Below are positions 15,252 to 25,196 of a stretch of 64,000 nucleotides of DNA, one piece after another. Made by a program: the position numbers and the translations under genes. A model generated the notes under the pieces. It did not search any database and was not told the DNA's origin. It saw only the letters and a list, made by a program, of their open reading frames with translations. Every line of letters starts with the position of its first letter. The first letter of the stretch is position 1. The DNA is from Rufibacter roseolus (lineage in GTDB: Bacteria; Bacteroidota; Bacteroidia; Cytophagales; Hymenobacteraceae). The stretch spans positions 62,001 to 126,000 of the forward strand of contig NZ_JAFMSU010000003.1 of NCBI RefSeq assembly GCF_017916365.1, given 5' to 3'.

Positions 15252-17114
15252 ATGGAACAGAACTTTATTCCGGAACCCCTGCAGGAGAATCATTCCCAAG
15301 GGTCCCGGTTGGCCAGATTAAAGCACCTCATCAGCGCCCGGTTCCCGCAGTTAAAAGAACCAGTGGTGGAGGAGTTGCTGCTGAAGTTTAGTTGGGTTGA
15401 ATTAAACCGGGGCGAAATCCTGTGCCGCGAAGGTGAGGTGGGCGACTGCGTGTACCTTCTGGTCTCGGGCAGGTTGAAGGCCTGGGTGGATTTCGCTACG
15501 CAAGAGGCCCGCGAAGTAGGGGAAGTTGCCCAAGGCGAAAGCGTAGGCGAGATGGCGCTGATCACCGGCGAGGCCCGCACCGCTACCATTGTGGCCATGC
15601 GCACCTGCATGTTGGCCAAACTGCTCAAATCAGACTTTGATGAACTGGTAGCCCACCACCCTGAGGTAGCGGTTAACCTTTCAAAGCTGATTATTGACCG
15701 GCTCACCTTTGCCATGCACCACACCCGCGTGCCGGCCAAATACACCAACATTGTCCTGGTGCCCGCTACCTCCAGTTCTGTTACCAGGGAGTTTATGGCT
15801 CAATTGGTTGAAGCATTGCATGCGCATTACCACATCAGGCATATCCACAAAGATTTGCTGCCTCACCCCTTGCGGAACGGGTCGATGCCGGAGGAGGAGC
15901 GCTTTTTTGAAATCCACAACTGGCTCGCCGAGCAGGAAGTGGAACAGGGCTACGTGATTTTCGAGGCCGACCCACAAGACCATGAATGGACCGGCCATTG
16001 CCTCCGTCAGGCCGATAAAATCCTGCTCTTGACCGAGGCAGCCCAGGGTACCACCCTTTCACAGGTGGAGGAATCTCTGTTCTCTGGCGGGGATTTGCAA
16101 CTGCAGCAGGCCACGGAAGTAGCATTTTTGTACCCTCCTGCCACCGAGACTCCCACCCAAACCCACGAAATGCTGGAACTTAGGCCGGTTTCCCGCCACT
16201 ATAACATCAGGCTCCAGGACCAGCGACACCTGAACCGGTTGGCCCGAATGCTCACAAACAAAGGCATCGGGCTGGTGCTGGGCGGCGGCGGGGCGAAAGG
16301 CTTTGCCCACGTCGGCGTTTTTAAAGCACTGCGCGAGGCCGACATTCCCATTGACATGGTCTGCGGTACCAGCATAGGTGCCATCATTGCCGCGGCCATC
16401 GCCCATGAATGGGACCCGGAGGAGATTTACCGCAAAGGACGAAGCGCTTTTGTGACTGACAAGCCCCTGAATGATTACACCCTGCCCGTACTCTCGCTTA
16501 TCAAAGGACACAAACTCCAGAGTACCAACCGAAAATACTTCGGGGAAAAGAACATTGAAGACCTCTGGCTTAACTTCTTCTGCATCTCCAGCAACTACAC
16601 CCTCTCAGAAATGGTGGTGCATGAACGCGGTCCCCTCTGGAAATACGTCACGGCTTCTGTTTCTATTCCGGGGGTGCTGCCGCCGGTGGTAGATGGCAAC
16701 AACCTGCTTATAGATGGTGCTTCTTTCAACAATTTCCCGGTAGATGTCATGAAAGCCCGTTACGGCGGAAAACTCATTGGCATTAACCTCCTGGAAGACA
16801 AAGAATACAAACTGAACTACAACAATCTGCCGGGAGGCTGGCATCTTTTCTTTTCCAGGTTCCTTCCTTTCCTGAAACGCTACAAAAGCCCCAGCATCTC
16901 GGCCATCATGCTCAAATCCACCATCCTCTCCAGCATGGTGCACCAGCGGAAACAAATCAATGACCTTGACCTTTTCCTGAATCCACCGGTAGGTAAGTTC
17001 AGCCTCCTGGACATGAAGAACTTTGATGCCATCGCCGCCACGGGATATGCCTACGGGAAAGAATTCCTCCAGACAACTAACCTTGATGCCCTGAGAACCC
17101 AGATAAAGGTGTAG
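15252..17114 (+). CDS. cyclic nucleotide-binding / patatin-like phospholipase (NTE family)
   Basis: A 620-residue protein with the plan of neuropathy-target-esterase-like lipases. An N-terminal cyclic nucleotide-binding domain (about 30-150) has the phosphate cassette GESVGEMALITGEARTA, including the Arg that contacts the phosphate. A middle region (about 155-320) of unclear fold follows. The patatin domain (about 335-500) has the oxyanion loop GGGGAKG, the nucleophile elbow GTSIG (S374) and the DGA motif (D488), so the Ser-Asp dyad is intact. It probably hydrolyses phospholipids or lysophospholipids under cyclic-nucleotide control. A cyclase gene lies 9 kb downstream and another cNMP-binding gene 9 kb away. 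It is preceded by an AT-rich promoter region and appears monocistronic. Confidence 0.92.
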   Translation: MEQNFIPEPLQENHSQGSRLARLKHLISARFPQLKEPVVEELLLKFSWVELNRGEILCREGEVGDCVYLLVSGRLKAWVDFATQEAREVGEVAQGESVGEMALITGEARTATIVAMRTCMLAKLLKSDFDELVAHHPEVAVNLSKLIIDRLTFAMHHTRVPAKYTNIVLVPATSSSVTREFMAQLVEALHAHYHIRHIHKDLLPHPLRNGSMPEEERFFEIHNWLAEQEVEQGYVIFEADPQDHEWTGHCLRQADKILLLTEAAQGTTLSQVEESLFSGGDLQLQQATEVAFLYPPATETPTQTHEMLELRPVSRHYNIRLQDQRHLNRLARMLTNKGIGLVLGGGGAKGFAHVGVFKALREADIPIDMVCGTSIGAIIAAAIAHEWDPEEIYRKGRSAFVTDKPLNDYTLPVLSLIKGHKLQSTNRKYFGEKNIEDLWLNFFCISSNYTLSEMVVHERGPLWKYVTASVSIPGVLPPVVDGNNLLIDGASFNNFPVDVMKARYGGKLIGINLLEDKEYKLNYNNLPGGWHLFFSRFLPFLKRYKSPSISAIMLKSTILSSMVHQRKQINDLDLFLNPPVGKFSLLDMKNFDAIAATGYAYGKEFLQTTNLDALRTQIKV

Positions 17115-17715: not shown

Positions 17716-20700
17716 TTGAAGCACTTCATGATGGCAACCAATACCTTACATATTCAGACTCAAATCAGAAAACCTTCTATCTCTGCTGCGGTCAGGACCT
17801 TTCTTCTCTATTGCTCCTTCTTTTTCAGTTTCTTCTTTTATTTACCTTTTAATGGGTTTGCCCAAACCACCGATACAGAAATTATCCCCATGCTGGAGTG
17901 CGTCAAATGGCTTCCGGCCGAAAACAAGTTTGAGGCCGTCTTTGGCTACAACAACCCCAGTAAATCAAACATAACCGTGCCCCCGGAAAACAGTACTTTG
18001 TCTTGTAACGCCCAAGTGGTCGCCGGGCAGGTGCCTACCGTTTTCAAGCCTGGCCGGGTATTCTCCGCATTTTCAGCCAAGTTTGACTGCCCGGTGCTCA
18101 CCTGGACCGTGACCGGGCCCAGCGGCAAACCAAAGTCAGTAACAGCCAGCGGCAGTTCCACTGCCTGCGCCACCAGCGGCAACATTAAACCCGTGATTAG
18201 TTCGCCGGGTAAAAACTTTACCAAGATTGGGTCAGAACTCAGCATTTTACCTAATTCAGGGGTACTTACCACGAACAAAGTCTACCAGATAGAGCAAGTG
18301 AACGGACAGAGTTACGTGTTCATCAGCCTTTATGCGGTATCAGGAGCCACCACTGCCCTGCTCACTGATCTGAAAACCTTAGGTCTTTTAGACCCCAAAG
18401 TAAGTAACCTGCACATCACCGGCTGGCTACCCATTGCCCAACTGTCTAACCTGAACGGGTTGGCCAATCTGGACCTGGCCATGCCGGTTTTCACCCCGTT
18501 GACCAACGTAGGTGCCACCACCACCCAGGGAGACCGCGCCCAGCGCACCGATCTCCTCCGGACCGCCTTTGGCGTCCAGGGCCAGGGAATCAAGATTGGG
18601 GTCTTATCTGACAGTTACAATGCCCGTTTGGGCAACGGAGCTTTGTTGGGAGTGAGGCAAGGTGATTTACCCGGTCCCGAAAATCCTCTCAATACCGTTC
18701 CAATCCAGATTTTAAGAGATCTCCCCCCTAACTCTGCCCTAGGCACCGATGAAGGAAGGGCCATGCTGGAGATTATCCATGATGTCGCACCTAAAGCAAC
18801 GCTTGCCTTCCGGACCGGCTTTGACGGCCCCATTGACATGGCCCAGGGCATCAGGGATTTGAAGGCAGCCGGCTGTAACATCATTATAGACGACATCACC
18901 TACATAGATGATCCTTTTTTCCAGGATGGGATTGTGGGGCAGGCGGTTGACGAGGTGGCTGCCCAGGGCGTCGCTTACTTCTCCGCGGCCGGTAACTTCG
19001 GGGAGTTGTCTTACCAGGGAGTGTACACCCCGGTAGATCCTGCCTCAAACCGGAAACACAATTTTGGAGGCGGTGATGTGCGGCAACGCGTTTTCCTGCC
19101 CGAAGGGGCTTATACCCTGGGTATGCAGTGGTATAGTGCTACCGGCCAGGACCTGGACTTCTACCTCACTGATGACAACGGAAACATTCTGGTGGGGCAT
19201 AATCGGGCCAGTACGTTTCCTTTTGAGGGCATGTCCTTTGATGTAACAGCCGGCGGCGCCACCGCCAATATTGTGGTGGAGAATGCCAGTACTACGCTGG
19301 ACCCTAACGTGGTATTCAAGTACATCATCTTCAGGGGCAATGCTGCCATTGGCGAGTACCGCACCGGCACTTCCACCATCACCGGCCACGCCAACGCTGC
19401 CGGTGCCATGACGGTGGGTGCGGTTCTGTACTCCAATACTCCCCGGTATAATGTTCCTTTGCCTACTATTGCTTCATTTTCCTCCAGAGGTGGCACTCCC
19501 TTGCTGGCCTCCGGCACTCCGGCCCGGAGCAAACCAGATTTTGCCGCGCCCAACGGGGGCAATACCACCGTTCCGATCGGGACTCTGTACAATGACGGGG
19601 ATTCATTCTATAACTTCTTCGGGACTTCCGCAGCGGCCCCGCATGCCGCCGCCGCTGCAGCCTTGCTTATGGAAGCGCACGTGAGGTTCTCGGGCCCAAC
19701 GCTGGCCCCGGCCCAAGTGAGAAGCCTCCTGCGGTCCACGGCACTGGACATGGGACCTAGTGGCCCAGATGTAGCCACAGGTTACGGATTTATCAGGCCA
19801 GACAACGCCATCTCCACCTTTGCTACCCCTACTCCTATTGCTTTGAGCATTTCAACCCCGGAAGGCGTTACGCCAGGAAGTAAATTGGTTGTGACCGGGC
19901 ACTATTTCAAGGGCTCCAGCCAGGGCAGCATCTCCAGAATCAAGTTCGCTGGTGCTGAACTGCCTACTACCTTTATCAGTGAAACCGAACTGCAGACAGT
20001 TATCCCTTCATACACCGGCAATCCGTCCATCCAGGTCTGCAGCCCCTCTACCAGCATCAAGGGCGGGGACGGTGGTTGCTCCAAACCGCTGTACCTGTTC
20101 CCCAAAACGCTTATCACCATCAAAGCCAATAATACAACCAAGGGCTACGGCGATGCCTTGCCCACCTTTACCGCAACCTTTACGCCCAATGATAGCCTCA
20201 GGGCAAGTAGCATCACTTTCACTACCCTGGCTACCGACCTGAGCGATGTAGGTGCCTATATTGTCACCCCCTCCCTCGCGTCTACCCACCCATTTTTGGC
20301 TCGCGCCGATAAGTACGAGGTGGTGTATGAACCCGGTATTCTGCAGATAGAGAAAATCGCCCTGGAAATAGCGGCCCGGGATGTGGCTATTACGGAAGGC
20401 GCGCCGCTCACCGGTTTTGCCTACAACTTCAACTTCCCAACGCCCGTCCGGAACACGAGTGACCGGATTGAACAAGTCCGGAATACCCTCCTGCAATCTC
20501 ACTTGTCTCTCCAGACCAACAAGGTGGCCCTGGTCACTGAAGCTGAGCTATTGAACCTGGAAGCTATCAGGAACCGGAGTTTCCTGGTGAGTGATTTGGC
20601 AGAGACCAGTGCCGCTAGGGTCATCAATGCCACCCGGGTATTGAACGTGAGCAGCAGGTTGCTCAATGAGGTATACACCAGTGAGCTGAATGTCTCTTCT

Positions 20701-21672
20701 GTCTTTAACGCCACCTACCTCATGAATGCCGCCCGCGTGATTAATGCGGCCCGAGTCATCAATGCGGCCCGTGTCATCAATGCCGCCAGGGTACTGAACA
20801 CCAATACCGTAGGACCGGCCAACAATGAGAAATCAATCCTGATCCTGAACGAGGCAGACGAGGTGCTCTCCAGGTTGTATTCCATCAACCTCATCACCGG
20901 TTACACGCTGGGTACGCACCGCTGGGCGCCGGCTTCGCTCCTTTCCCCTAACGTGAACGTGACCTACGGTGAACCCGCCAACTTCTTTGTGAACCCAATT
21001 GGCACCGGGGTAAGGGCCGTGAAACCAATTCTGGAATGCGTGCAGGTTTCCAGCAGACCGGGTTACTACATCGCCCATTTCTATTATGAAAACCCCAACC
21101 CCACCACGGTGGGCCTGCCGCTCAACAGTGAAAACAAACTCACTTACGCCGGAGCCCAGCCCCCTTGTTTTGTGAACAACACCAGGATTCCGACCATTTT
21201 CAAGCCGGGCAGAAACTACGCTTTCTCTGTGGAGTTTGACGGCACTAAAGTATACTGGGAACTCACCAGTATACAGGGTACCAAAAAGACTTCCATTGCC
21301 TCTTACGCCAGTTCCACTTCGGCCAGGTGCAAATCCAATGTTGCCGTTACCTCTCCCTGCGCCAGCACTACTCTCCAGGGTGTGATCGCCAGCAAGTTAG
21401 AAGCGGCTCCTGTTGAAGAAAGCGCCGCTATCAGGGTATATCCTAACCCCATCGGGAATGAAGTCTCCCTGGACTTGAGCGCCTTAGGGGAAACAGAGGT
21501 GACTGTCTCTATTGCGGATGTTTTAGGAAAAACGTGCCTGAAACGCCAGCAGTTACAAGCGGGCAAATCTGCTCCGGTCCTCAACACCAGCCACTTGGCT
21601 TCCGGGGTATACCTGCTGAAAATAGAATACGGCAATGAGGTGAAATCCTTCCGGCTGGTGAAGCGGGAATAA
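17716..21672 (+). CDS. secreted S8/S53-like serine peptidase with MBG, IPT and T9SS sorting domains
   Basis: A 1318-residue secreted protein. A signal peptide (hydrophobic core about 30-48, ending GFAQ) is followed by a beta-rich domain (58-152). The peptidase domain (about 285-690) has Asp in GVLSDSYN (D299), Glu where subtilases have the His of HGT (E346 in DEGRAMLEIIHD), the oxyanion Asn in SAAGNFG (N427) and Ser in GTSAAAPHAA (S638). An IPT/TIG domain (about 713-795) and an MBG-type domain (about 797-880) come next. A further MBG-like region is interrupted by a hexapeptide-repeat stretch (about 920-1030). A second copy of the N-terminal beta domain (1104-1206) precedes a type IX secretion sorting domain (about 1235-1318, starting VYPNP). 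It is probably exported through the Por system to the surface or medium. Its substrate is unknown. A TPR kinase gene follows after 104 bases. Confidence 0.88.
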   Translation: MKHFMMATNTLHIQTQIRKPSISAAVRTFLLYCSFFFSFFFYLPFNGFAQTTDTEIIPMLECVKWLPAENKFEAVFGYNNPSKSNITVPPENSTLSCNAQVVAGQVPTVFKPGRVFSAFSAKFDCPVLTWTVTGPSGKPKSVTASGSSTACATSGNIKPVISSPGKNFTKIGSELSILPNSGVLTTNKVYQIEQVNGQSYVFISLYAVSGATTALLTDLKTLGLLDPKVSNLHITGWLPIAQLSNLNGLANLDLAMPVFTPLTNVGATTTQGDRAQRTDLLRTAFGVQGQGIKIGVLSDSYNARLGNGALLGVRQGDLPGPENPLNTVPIQILRDLPPNSALGTDEGRAMLEIIHDVAPKATLAFRTGFDGPIDMAQGIRDLKAAGCNIIIDDITYIDDPFFQDGIVGQAVDEVAAQGVAYFSAAGNFGELSYQGVYTPVDPASNRKHNFGGGDVRQRVFLPEGAYTLGMQWYSATGQDLDFYLTDDNGNILVGHNRASTFPFEGMSFDVTAGGATANIVVENASTTLDPNVVFKYIIFRGNAAIGEYRTGTSTITGHANAAGAMTVGAVLYSNTPRYNVPLPTIASFSSRGGTPLLASGTPARSKPDFAAPNGGNTTVPIGTLYNDGDSFYNFFGTSAAAPHAAAAAALLMEAHVRFSGPTLAPAQVRSLLRSTALDMGPSGPDVATGYGFIRPDNAISTFATPTPIALSISTPEGVTPGSKLVVTGHYFKGSSQGSISRIKFAGAELPTTFISETELQTVIPSYTGNPSIQVCSPSTSIKGGDGGCSKPLYLFPKTLITIKANNTTKGYGDALPTFTATFTPNDSLRASSITFTTLATDLSDVGAYIVTPSLASTHPFLARADKYEVVYEPGILQIEKIALEIAARDVAITEGAPLTGFAYNFNFPTPVRNTSDRIEQVRNTLLQSHLSLQTNKVALVTEAELLNLEAIRNRSFLVSDLAETSAARVINATRVLNVSSRLLNEVYTSELNVSSVFNATYLMNAARVINAARVINAARVINAARVLNTNTVGPANNEKSILILNEADEVLSRLYSINLITGYTLGTHRWAPASLLSPNVNVTYGEPANFFVNPIGTGVRAVKPILECVQVSSRPGYYIAHFYYENPNPTTVGLPLNSENKLTYAGAQPPCFVNNTRIPTIFKPGRNYAFSVEFDGTKVYWELTSIQGTKKTSIASYASSTSARCKSNVAVTSPCASTTLQGVIASKLEAAPVEESAAIRVYPNPIGNEVSLDLSALGETEVTVSIADVLGKTCLKRQQLQAGKSAPVLNTSHLASGVYLLKIEYGNEVKSFRLVKRE
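20725..20796 (+). repeat. four tandem 18-bp units encoding a hexapeptide repeat
   Basis: Four in-frame 18-base units, starting at 20725, 20743, 20761 and 20779, encode NAARVI three times and then NAARVL (residues 1004-1027). Synonymous differences between units show selection on the protein. Looser copies with Asn about every six residues run upstream to about 20610. Confidence 0.9.
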
Positions 21673-21776: not shown

Positions 21777-23987
21777 ATGAAAAATTCAACGTTGCTGCTG
21801 CTTTGTTTCCTTCTCTCCCATCTGCTGCTGGCCCAGAAAACGCCTCAGGACAGTTTACAGGCTCTTCTTAAGACGGCCAAAGACACGTCAAGGGTGAACA
21901 TCTTGTTGGAGTTGAGCAAAGCCTATAACGGGTCTGACCAGCCCAAAGCCATTTCCTATGCAAAACAAGCCCTAGCCGATTCCCGGACCTATAGTTTCCC
22001 CAAGGGAGAAGCCTATGCTTTGAAAAGCCTGGGGCTGGCCTACGTGAACGAGGGGAATTACCCCGAGGTAATCCGCTACTGGGAGCAATCATTGGCCATC
22101 TTCAACAAACTGGGCGATAAAGTGGGGGCCAGCAATATGCTCAGCAACATTGGGGTCATTTACTCTATCCAGGGGTGGGAAGCCAAAGCCATTGAGTTTT
22201 ACCTTAAATCTTTGAAAAAGGCCGAAGAAAGCGGCGACAAGCTCCGGATTGCCACCGCCCTCCTGAACCTTGGCGCCGAATATTACAACAACCCCGCGAA
22301 TCTGGACAAAGCCCTCTCCTACTATCTGCGGGCCCTGCCACTCAGCAAGGAGATCGGGGATCAGACTACGCTGGGTACGCTTACGGTGAACATAGGGGAG
22401 ATCTACTTTGCCCAGGGTGACCATAAAAAAGCATTGTCTTATTACCAGGAAGCCCTGAAGATCCTGAATGCCGCCGGGGTGAAAGACAAAGTGGCTTATA
22501 CTCTGAACAACATCGGGAAGGTGTATGACGCGCGCGGCGATCTGCGCATGGCCCTGGAACAGCACCAGAAAGCCCGCCAAATCGCTAACTCCGTGGCTGC
22601 CAAACTGGAAGAAGCCCAGGCCCTGAACTACATTGGACAGATCAACCTGAAGCTGAACCACGCAAACCAAGCCTTGTCCACCTTTCTGCGGTCAAAAGAA
22701 ATTGCCACTTCCCTGGGCGCCAACTACGAGCTTAAGGATGCCTACGCCGGCCTGGCCCAGTCTTACCAGAAGCTCTCAGACTACCGGCAAGCCTACCAAT
22801 ACCAATCCTTGCTGCTGGGCATCAAAGACACCTTGTACAACGCTGAGACCAAGGAGAAAATAAACAACCTGGAGGCCGCCTACCAGAATGAGAAAAAGCA
22901 GAACCAGATAGACCTTCTAACCAAAGACAGCCAACTGAAACAAGCCAGCCTTGAGCGGCAGCAGGTTTTCCGTAACGCCTTGCTGGCGGTGCTGGGCCTG
23001 ATCATCATCATTGCGGTAGGGCTGTTCTTCAACATCCGGAACAAGGTGAAAGTCAATCGGCTGTTGCAACACAAAAACGAAGAGATCAACGCGCAGAAAG
23101 AGGAACTGGCCACCCAACGGGATAATCTGGAGAAAACGTACAATAACCTGGTGAACACCCAGGACCAACTGGTGCAGTCAGAGAAAATGGCCTCGCTTGG
23201 TCAGCTTACCGCCGGGGTGGCCCACGAGATCAACAACCCCATCAACTTCGTCTCGGCGGGTATTGAGTCGCTGCGCGCTAACTTTACTGATATCATGGAG
23301 GTGGCCAAAGGATACTTCCAACTGAAACCCGGCGCGGATAACACCCAGCAGCTGCAGCAACTGGAGAAACTCAAGGCAGAGTTGGAGGTGGAAGAACTCA
23401 TTGAGGAATCTGAGCAGCTGTTCTCCAGCGTGAAAAACGGCGCCACCCGCACGAAGGAGATCGTGAAGAGCCTGAAAAACTTCACCCGTCTGGACGAAGA
23501 CAACCTCAAGAAAGCCAACCTGCACGAAGGCCTGGACTCTACCCTGGTGATCCTGAACAACCAATTGAAAAACCGCATCAAGATTGTGCGCAACTACGGC
23601 GATCTGCAGGAAGTCAATTGTTACCCCGGCCAGCTGAACCAGGTGTTCATGAACATCCTCAATAACGCCGCCCAGGCCATTCCGGGAGAAGGGACCATCG
23701 CCATCAAAACCTACACCGATGATGACTATGCCGTAATCAAGATCAGGGACAACGGGGTGGGGATGTCTGAGGAAGTGAAAAAACACATCTTTGAACCCTT
23801 CTTCACCACCAAAGACGTGGGCGAAGGCACGGGCCTGGGCCTTTCCATTTCCTACGGCATCATTGAGAAGCACAAAGGCAAAATAGAGGTAGAATCCCGG
23901 CCCGGCGAAGGGACCGAGTTCACCATCCGGATTCCCCTGCAGTTCACCCCAGCCTCCCAGAACCTGAAATTAGAGACTGTTTCATAA
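21777..23987 (+). CDS. TPR-domain sensor histidine kinase
   Basis: A 736-residue sensor kinase. It has a signal peptide (1-19, ending LLAQ), about eight tetratricopeptide repeats in the periplasm (about 40-370), a transmembrane helix (about 400-421), a coiled coil (about 430-475) and a kinase core. The core has H483 in [15 protein letters not shown], an H box of the type found in NtrB-like and Hpk4-like kinases, a helical insert, and ATPase boxes ([23 protein letters not shown]). Only 42 bases separate it from the response-regulator/cyclase gene, so the two form a likely two-component pair in one transcript. It may also share a transcript with the upstream protease gene (104-base gap). Confidence 0.94.
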
Positions 23988-24029
23988 TTAGCCACCTGTA
24001 CAGACCGCCATTCATCCCCCCTATAAACC

Positions 24030-25196
24030 ATGGAAAACATGACCTTGGAACAAGTTGTTTCATTCCCTACCCAAGCCTCAGAGAAACCTTCCATTCTGTA
24101 TATAGATGATGAGGAGGATAACCTGGTTGTCTTTAAATCAGCGTTCAGGCGGCACTACAACGTGCACACGGCCAAATCCGGGGAAGAAGGGCTGGAGATT
24201 CTCAAGTCGCTGGATGCCAGCCTGGTGATCACCGACCAGCGCATGCCCAGGATGACGGGCGTCCAGTTCCTGAAAAACCTGCCCGAGGACAAAGACACCA
24301 TCCGGATGATCCTGACGGGTTACAGCGATATGGAATCTGTGGTGGAGGCCATTAACACGGGGCAGGTCTACCGTTACATTGTAAAACCCTGGGACAAGGA
24401 AGAACTGAAAATTACCCTTGACAACGCCATTGAAGCTTTCCAGCTGCGCCGCACAAACAAACACCTCATCCATGAACTCCAGGAAGCCAACGAGGTGCTG
24501 GAGCAGAAAGTAGAGGAGCGCACTCAGCAGGTGAACCAGCAAAAAGAAGAGATTGAGAAGCTATTGCTCAATATTCTGCCCGTGGAGGTGGCCAATGAAC
24601 TGAAGGAGACGGGAGCGGCTACCCCCCGGTTCTACGAAAGTGCCACCGTCCTTTTCACCGATTTCGTGGGGTTTACTTCCATTGCCGAGGGGCTTTCCCC
24701 TAATGAGCTGGTGTCTGAGCTGAACAACTGCTTTCTGGCATTTGACACCATTGTGGAGAAGAACAACCTGGAGAAAATCAAAACAATTGGTGATGCCTAT
24801 ATGTGCGCCGGCGGCCTTCCGGTCTCTAACCAGACCCACGCCGTAGACGCCATTCTGGCCGCCATTGAAATTCAGGAGCACATGAAACGCGTGAACGAGG
24901 CAAGGGCCTCCCACGGCCTGGTGCCGTGGAGTTTACGCATTGGCATCCATACAGGTCCGTTGGTGGCGGGGGTGGTGGGCCGCAAGAAGTTTGCCTATGA
25001 CATCTGGGGCGATACTGTGAACCTGGCCAGCCGCATAGAGTCCAGCGGAGAGGGCGGTAAAATCAACATCTCTGAGACTACTTTTGAGGCCGTGAAAGAA
25101 TGGTTCAGTTGCCTGTACCGGGGCAAAGTACCGGCCAAAAACAAAGGAGAGGTAGACATGTACTTTGTGCAGAGTAAGCTAAATAAGAGAGAGTAA
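24030..25196 (+). CDS. response regulator fused to class III nucleotide cyclase (probable adenylate cyclase)
   Basis: A 388-residue cytoplasmic protein. A receiver domain (about 20-135) has the acidic pair in YIDDEED, phospho-acceptor D69 in VITDQRMP, and the conserved Thr and Lys (ILTGY, VKPW). A coiled coil (about 140-185) leads to a class III cyclase domain (about 200-385). Both metal-binding Asp are present (D211 in LFTDFVGF, D255 in KTIGDAYM). The purine-selecting positions are Lys (K251) and Asp (D324 in YDIWGDTVN), the adenylate cyclase pair rather than the Glu/Cys pair of guanylate cyclases. Phosphorylation by the kinase encoded 42 bases upstream probably controls cAMP output. The architecture is known in Bacteroidota and cyanobacteria; adenylate specificity is inferred from residues only. 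Confidence 0.93.
   Translation: MENMTLEQVVSFPTQASEKPSILYIDDEEDNLVVFKSAFRRHYNVHTAKSGEEGLEILKSLDASLVITDQRMPRMTGVQFLKNLPEDKDTIRMILTGYSDMESVVEAINTGQVYRYIVKPWDKEELKITLDNAIEAFQLRRTNKHLIHELQEANEVLEQKVEERTQQVNQQKEEIEKLLLNILPVEVANELKETGAATPRFYESATVLFTDFVGFTSIAEGLSPNELVSELNNCFLAFDTIVEKNNLEKIKTIGDAYMCAGGLPVSNQTHAVDAILAAIEIQEHMKRVNEARASHGLVPWSLRIGIHTGPLVAGVVGRKKFAYDIWGDTVNLASRIESSGEGGKINISETTFEAVKEWFSCLYRGKVPAKNKGEVDMYFVQSKLNKRE

Follow-up and report, generated by a model that had tools for sequence, protein, structure and literature searches.

Peptidases with a subtilisin-like fold have been sorted into two active-site layouts, told apart by the location of the catalytic acid, in the parts of a 2024 structural survey consulted here (PMC11593635). 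For savinase, the same parts describe a pentad of Asp32, His64, Ser125, Asn155 and Ser221, in which the carbonyl of Ser125 contacts the base and its side chain contacts the carbonyl of the nucleophile. S53 enzymes use a Glu paired with an Asp that is not homologous to Asp32, according to the consulted portion of PMC6278154; this Asp shares a helix with the Glu, four residues past it, and Asp also serves as the oxyanion residue (PMC11593635, Table 1 of the part consulted). Here, we describe a gene in a 64,000-nucleotide stretch of Rufibacter roseolus DNA (the window; contig NZ_JAFMSU010000003.1, positions 62,001 to 126,000) that departs from both arrangements. The open reading frame (17716..21672, plus strand, as are all features of this gene given below) encodes a subtilase-fold peptidase of 1318 residues, with a mechanically assigned TTG start for which an ATG at 17728 or 17731 is likelier. 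Together with its closest relatives, it carries Glu at the place of the catalytic His, and, judged from alignments, the residues of this Glu type correspond in full to neither the S8 nor the S53 definition. From the savinase pentad, it retains the equivalents of Asn155 and Ser221, while the other three residues are changed.

By alignment and profile comparison, Glu346 (18751..18753) occupies the position of the catalytic His64 of subtilisin. This Glu was invariant in an initial alignment of 13 proteins and, after the addition of 78 loci from named genomes, was present in 91/91 relatives. The search patterns were blind to the position: one contained the nucleophile motif and the other S298-D299, and neither included E346 or D392-D393. 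Relatives were then assigned to a Glu type or a His type by the residue at 346, which gives 113 Glu rows and 28 His rows among the 141 unique rows classed (all counts include the window protein). Because the types are defined by this residue, the resulting 113/113 and 28/28 are uninformative alone, and the non-circular evidence comes from the 91/91 set, from fixed states elsewhere in the domain, and from trees computed with the trait columns masked.

An earlier, sequence-only reading of this DNA had proposed a Glu in place of the subtilase His, Asn427 as the oxyanion residue, and Ser638 in GTSAAAPH as the nucleophile, and had left the choice between a triad built on carboxylates, possibly with a preference for acid, and an inactive enzyme. 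The three residue assignments are borne out in the larger set. Asn427 (18994..18996; subtilisin Asn155 by alignment) is Asn in 113/113 Glu rows, Ser638 (19627..19629; subtilisin Ser221 by Pfam match and row counts) is Ser in 112/113 with the remaining row truncated, and the active site has acidic residues at fixed positions. The same reading held out the His of the motif EIIHD, numbered H356, as a residue that could restore a normal triad. It is in fact His355 (18778..18780), and since it is His in only 97/113 Glu rows, this objection fails. His448 (110/113), His643 (103/113) and His558 (77/113) were considered as substitutes and likewise rejected, and no fully conserved His was found in the 113 Glu rows.

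The aspartate of the triad also appears to be displaced. The reading had taken Asp299 (18610..18612) for the subtilase Asp. The position of Asp32 is occupied by Ser298 (18607..18609), and Asp299 lies one residue further on and is Asn in 3/113 Glu rows; ungapped profile and structure alignments rule out its equivalence to Asp32. A direct sequence match of the N-terminal half to ordinary S8 enzymes was too weak alone, and the gap was bridged by His-type sister subtilases, which turned up in searches centred on Planctomycetota and Chloroflexota genomes and of which 12 form alignment A4. The Glu-type and His-type profiles (79 versus 12 rows) matched with a probability of 100 and an E-value of 1.3e-55 over 426 columns at 26% identity, and their motifs pair without gaps: GVLSDS with AIIDGG, TDEGRAM with TTHGTAC, and IIIDDITY with IISHSLGW. 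A second comparison matched the His-type profile to subtilisin BPN' (E 3e-33) with D32, H64 and S125 aligned. Because the two steps align in this way, Ser298 is placed at Asp32 and Asp393 at Ser125.

Structural comparison gave the same placement. An AlphaFold2 model of the fragment (predicted local distance difference test, pLDDT, 95.4) was aligned with subtilisin structures, in which the first pair was 290 with 24 in 32/32 listed rows and the last pair was 396 with 128 in 28/32; the remaining four (1q5p, 1st3, 3qtl and 6dwq) end at 126 or 127. Provided that no gap lies near the ends, these pairs correspond to 298 at 32 and 393 at 125. The same offsets in PCSK9 yield Asp186 and Pro288, using the numbering published in the consulted part of PMC11593635. 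The pair Asp392-Asp393 (18889..18894), which had been overlooked before, is present as D392 in 113/113 and D393 in 112/113 Glu rows. The sole row with Asn at 393 (L136, motif IIDNV) provides a natural test of the need for D393.

The changes at these sites occur together. Ser298 is found in all 113 Glu rows, alongside the invariant or nearly invariant residues at 392, 393, 427 and 638. In the 28 His rows, position 298 is Asp in 27 and Glu in one, and position 393 is Ser in 26, Ala in one and Pro in one. None of the 141 rows mixes the two residue sets. Furthermore, 18 new unique rows drawn from two further genome groups after the pattern had been seen all fit it, 13 with D/H/S and five with S/E/D. 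Ten positions (298, 299, 345, 346, 365, 379, 392, 393, 471 and 557) are fixed in at least 95% of Glu rows and rare in His rows, and six of them fall in the motifs of subtilisin positions 32, 64 and 125. As for the deviating His rows, L182 and L184 carry the Ala and Pro at the Ser125 site, and L207, which sits on a long branch, has the Glu in place of Asp32.

Phylogenetic trees were computed with the trait columns masked, with S53 and L207 left out, and with 48 of 108 and then 53 of 113 Glu rows. The Glu rows were monophyletic in both (support 100/99 with 48 rows and 100/94 with 53 rows). Their sister is a group of 26 His-type subtilases (98/87), and the branch joining the two received 98/93. 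One His row, L214, lies outside this sister group and clusters with an ordinary subtilase from the genome of the window. Because the Glu rows form one clade whose sister is His-type, a single switch on one branch, retained since, accounts for the distribution. This result does not support the earlier description of the protein as a form between S8 and S53. By descent, the Glu type looks like a branch of S8 whose use of Glu recalls S53, and not like a link between the families.

The Glu rows comprise 78 from the pattern scan of named genomes (best 80 loci, of which 78 were used), 34 from whole-genome protein and profile searches, and the window protein. The whole-genome searches covered the phyla of the window and of cyanobacterial, planctomycete, proteobacterial, verrucomicrobial and Chloroflexi relatives. 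The first set contained 111 loci, of which four had no match and 15 were too short, and 91 rows were retained. Among the loci added afterwards, L132 was left out, and L186, which lies at the contig place of L163, yielded no row. Eight duplicates and three ordinary subtilases with the His out of register (L195, L197 and L198) were also excluded, as were later three duplicates and two further misaligned subtilases (L251 and L253); an HGT motif lies nearby in all five of the misaligned sequences. From the last search round, 23 of 44 loci were read, namely those matching over most of the domain. In one cyanobacterial genome (Hormoscilla, G310, the genome of L107), six places match most of the domain at more than 550 bits each. 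One of the six has two in-frame stops, an additional fragment has one stop, and L134 is the place used.

Taken as a mechanism, the residue pattern suggests a remodelling of the acid/base machinery in a single ancestor of the Glu type. Ser638 would attack the peptide bond, and Glu346, at the former His64 place, would act as general base and acid. The carboxylate sharing a proton with Glu346 would most likely be that of Asp393, at the former Ser125 place and with Asp392 adjacent, and Asp393 would then do for Glu346 what Asp32 does for His64. Ser298 would fill the emptied Asp32 place, and the oxyanion hole would be formed by Asn427 and the backbone of Ser638. In the simplest reading, the acid shifted from position 32 to position 125 while His changed to Glu. 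We lean, by a modest degree, towards a secreted subtilase-fold serine peptidase that uses Ser638 and Glu346 together with a carboxylate from the strand of residues 392-393, probably that of D393. The enzyme would presumably be active, with D393 touching E346, and would favour acidic or neutral pH. If active, it may by analogy work as S53 enzymes do, with a carboxylate as the base of a serine peptidase. The exact S53 mechanism is impossible here because the oxyanion residue is Asn.

Compared with S8 enzymes (subtilisin, KP-43, Vpr and CspB), the Glu type shares the subtilase fold, the GTS nucleophile motif, the oxyanion Asn and the glycine after the base. It differs by Ser298 (113/113 Ser) in place of Asp32, Glu346 in place of His64, Asp393 in place of Ser125, and the added Asp392, so that neither the Asp nor the His of an S8 enzyme is found. 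The His-type sisters have the same domain order and insert, at the 26% identity over 426 columns given above, and retain ordinary Asp-His-Ser residues. With S53 (kumamolisin, sedolisin and CLN2), the Glu type has in common the Ser nucleophile and, in position only, the Glu at the His place. Its proposed acid would also be like that of S53 in not being homologous to Asp32, as far as the part of PMC6278154 consulted describes the latter. In contrast to S53, no Asp is found four residues past the Glu, where the M350 site is Met in 105, Leu in two and Ile in one of 108 rows; the oxyanion residue is Asn427 instead of Asp, and the candidate acid lies on another strand.

Database comparisons gave a similar picture. 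The Pfam Peptidase_S8 match is limited to the serine half of the catalytic domain, and no Pfam or NCBIfam model was found to cover the Glu half as a separate family. For PF09286 (Pro-kuma_activ), neither the 79 rows of alignment A2 (E<=0.01) nor the genome of the window (E<=0.001) yielded a match. The list of 50 structure matches for the whole model holds no S53 entry, which excludes nothing; the list for the fragment includes 1siu and 1zvk, by title kumamolisin E78H mutants. The probable database home of the Glu type is CDD cd05562 'Peptidases_S53_like' or the InterPro 'Glr3161-like domain', and the former label points to S53. Glu at this site may thus already be known to curators. In the open-access literature searched, with most subscription papers outside its scope, no paper under either name was found, nor any description of this layout with its Asp32/Ser125 exchange. 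A role in anti-phage defence was considered and rejected: matches to IetS/IteS were weak and confined to the Ser region. The phage collection gave no match at E 1e-5.

Several other explanations have to be weighed against an active Ser-Glu enzyme supported by D393. Loss of Asp32 and His64 normally kills a subtilase, and the top Foldseek matches of the whole model include CspC of Clostridioides difficile, titled a pseudoprotease, and CspA. The domain could accordingly have lost its His and turned into a non-cutting protein with a binding or scaffold role. Against this, the nucleophile and the oxyanion Asn are kept as described across named rows from nine phyla, and the acidic residues of the active site are fixed, whereas variation there would be expected of a dead enzyme, so that we regard a pseudoprotease as unlikely. 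We give slightly less credence to an active Ser-Glu enzyme whose supporting acid is D299 or D392 instead of D393. Both residues are specific to the Glu type, with D392 in 113/113 and D299 in 110/113 rows. However, three rows that are otherwise intact (L033, L044 and L067) have Asn in place of D299, and subtilisin positions 33 and 124 lie outside the published pentad, whereas 125 lies within it (PMC11593635, in the part consulted).

It is very improbable that the protein truly bridges S8 and S53, or belongs to S53. The profile match to S53 covers the Ser region alone (probability 59, E 9e-5, two S53 rows), and both the absent Asp at four residues past the Glu and the oxyanion Asn point away from it, as does the joint branch with the His-type subtilase clade in trees that contained no S53 sequences. 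Still more remote is a normal triad completed by a His from elsewhere, either H448 in the insert or H355. The conservation of H448 speaks for such a triad, but three rows have N, Y or Q there, H355 varies more widely, and the usual Asp-His pair cannot form because the Asp32 place is Ser.

The domains surrounding the active site are as follows. A propeptide-like domain (residues 166-284, 18211..18567) is kept in the relatives of alignment A2 and would presumably serve as a propeptide. The catalytic domain (residues 285-700, 18568..19815; Pfam and structure matches) contains a beta-rich, PPC-like insert at about residues 441-555 (19036..19380, limits approximate), for which a PPC match was obtained in 1/79 A2 members (E 0.0047). 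The insert holds His448 and Trp472, which are kept in 110/113 and 113/113 Glu rows, respectively. The catalytic domain is followed by a TIG domain (19843..20037) and an MBG_2 domain (20113..20343), both identified by Pfam, and by a type A C-terminal sorting domain of the type IX secretion system (21436..21645; PF18962 E 2.2e-12, TIGR04183 E 6e-13). In the C-terminal half of the gene, a tandem 18-base repeat of 3.8 copies (20720-20787) encodes the six-residue unit INAARV.

One side of the gene is flanked by a cyclic-nucleotide (cNMP)-binding patatin-like phospholipase of the NTE type (15252-17114). The other flank (21777-25196) encodes a TPR histidine kinase, then a response regulator that carries an adenylate/guanylate cyclase domain. 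The phospholipase and the cyclase could possibly constitute a cyclic-nucleotide pair. The host genome contains one copy of the Glu-type peptidase and 11 other S8 proteins above the Pfam cut-off; by eye, these show the base His in 11/11, Asp at position 32 in 10/11 and Ser at position 125 in 11/11. Among the matches listed in named genomes, the closest relative is from Rufibacter latericius, with 84% identity over the domain. The dN/dS ratio (nonsynonymous to synonymous substitutions) of the catalytic domain against this relative is about 0.06, a rough value because dS is 1.7 and near saturation, and suggests roughly that the domain is under purifying selection; the N-terminal half alone yielded no ratio.

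The combination with type IX export, which the sequence-only reading had singled out, holds for the window protein, in which the C-terminal signal is present, and is not specific to the Glu type. Among nine full-length relatives scanned, three carry a type IX tail (two Bacteroidota and one Latescibacterota), two carry RTX repeats, one TSP3 repeats together with a dockerin just below the Pfam cut-off, and one PKD domains, while two consist of the peptidase only. Because the relatives carry such varied modules, type IX secretion is a local export solution and stands outside the active-site story. According to record titles, the named Glu-type rows belong to Bacteroidota, Pseudomonadota, Planctomycetota, Cyanobacteriota, Chloroflexota, Chlorobiota, Verrucomicrobiota, Latescibacterota and Kiritimatiellota.

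We put at about even the chances that the Glu type adds a third catalytic layout to clan SB, that of an active Ser-Glu peptidase with its acid on the Ser125 strand. Such a layout would have a single origin, by reciprocal exchange (Asp32 to Ser, Ser125 to Asp) combined with the change of His64 to Glu. If true, it would stand beside the Asp on strand 1 in S8 and the Asp on the base helix in S53. Since there are His-type sisters that share its domain plan, the Glu type offers a concrete case in which to test how a triad may be rewired while the nucleophile and the oxyanion hole stay in place, and how His came to be replaced by Glu apart from S53. With these sisters still living, the evolutionary route to a third layout would itself be testable.

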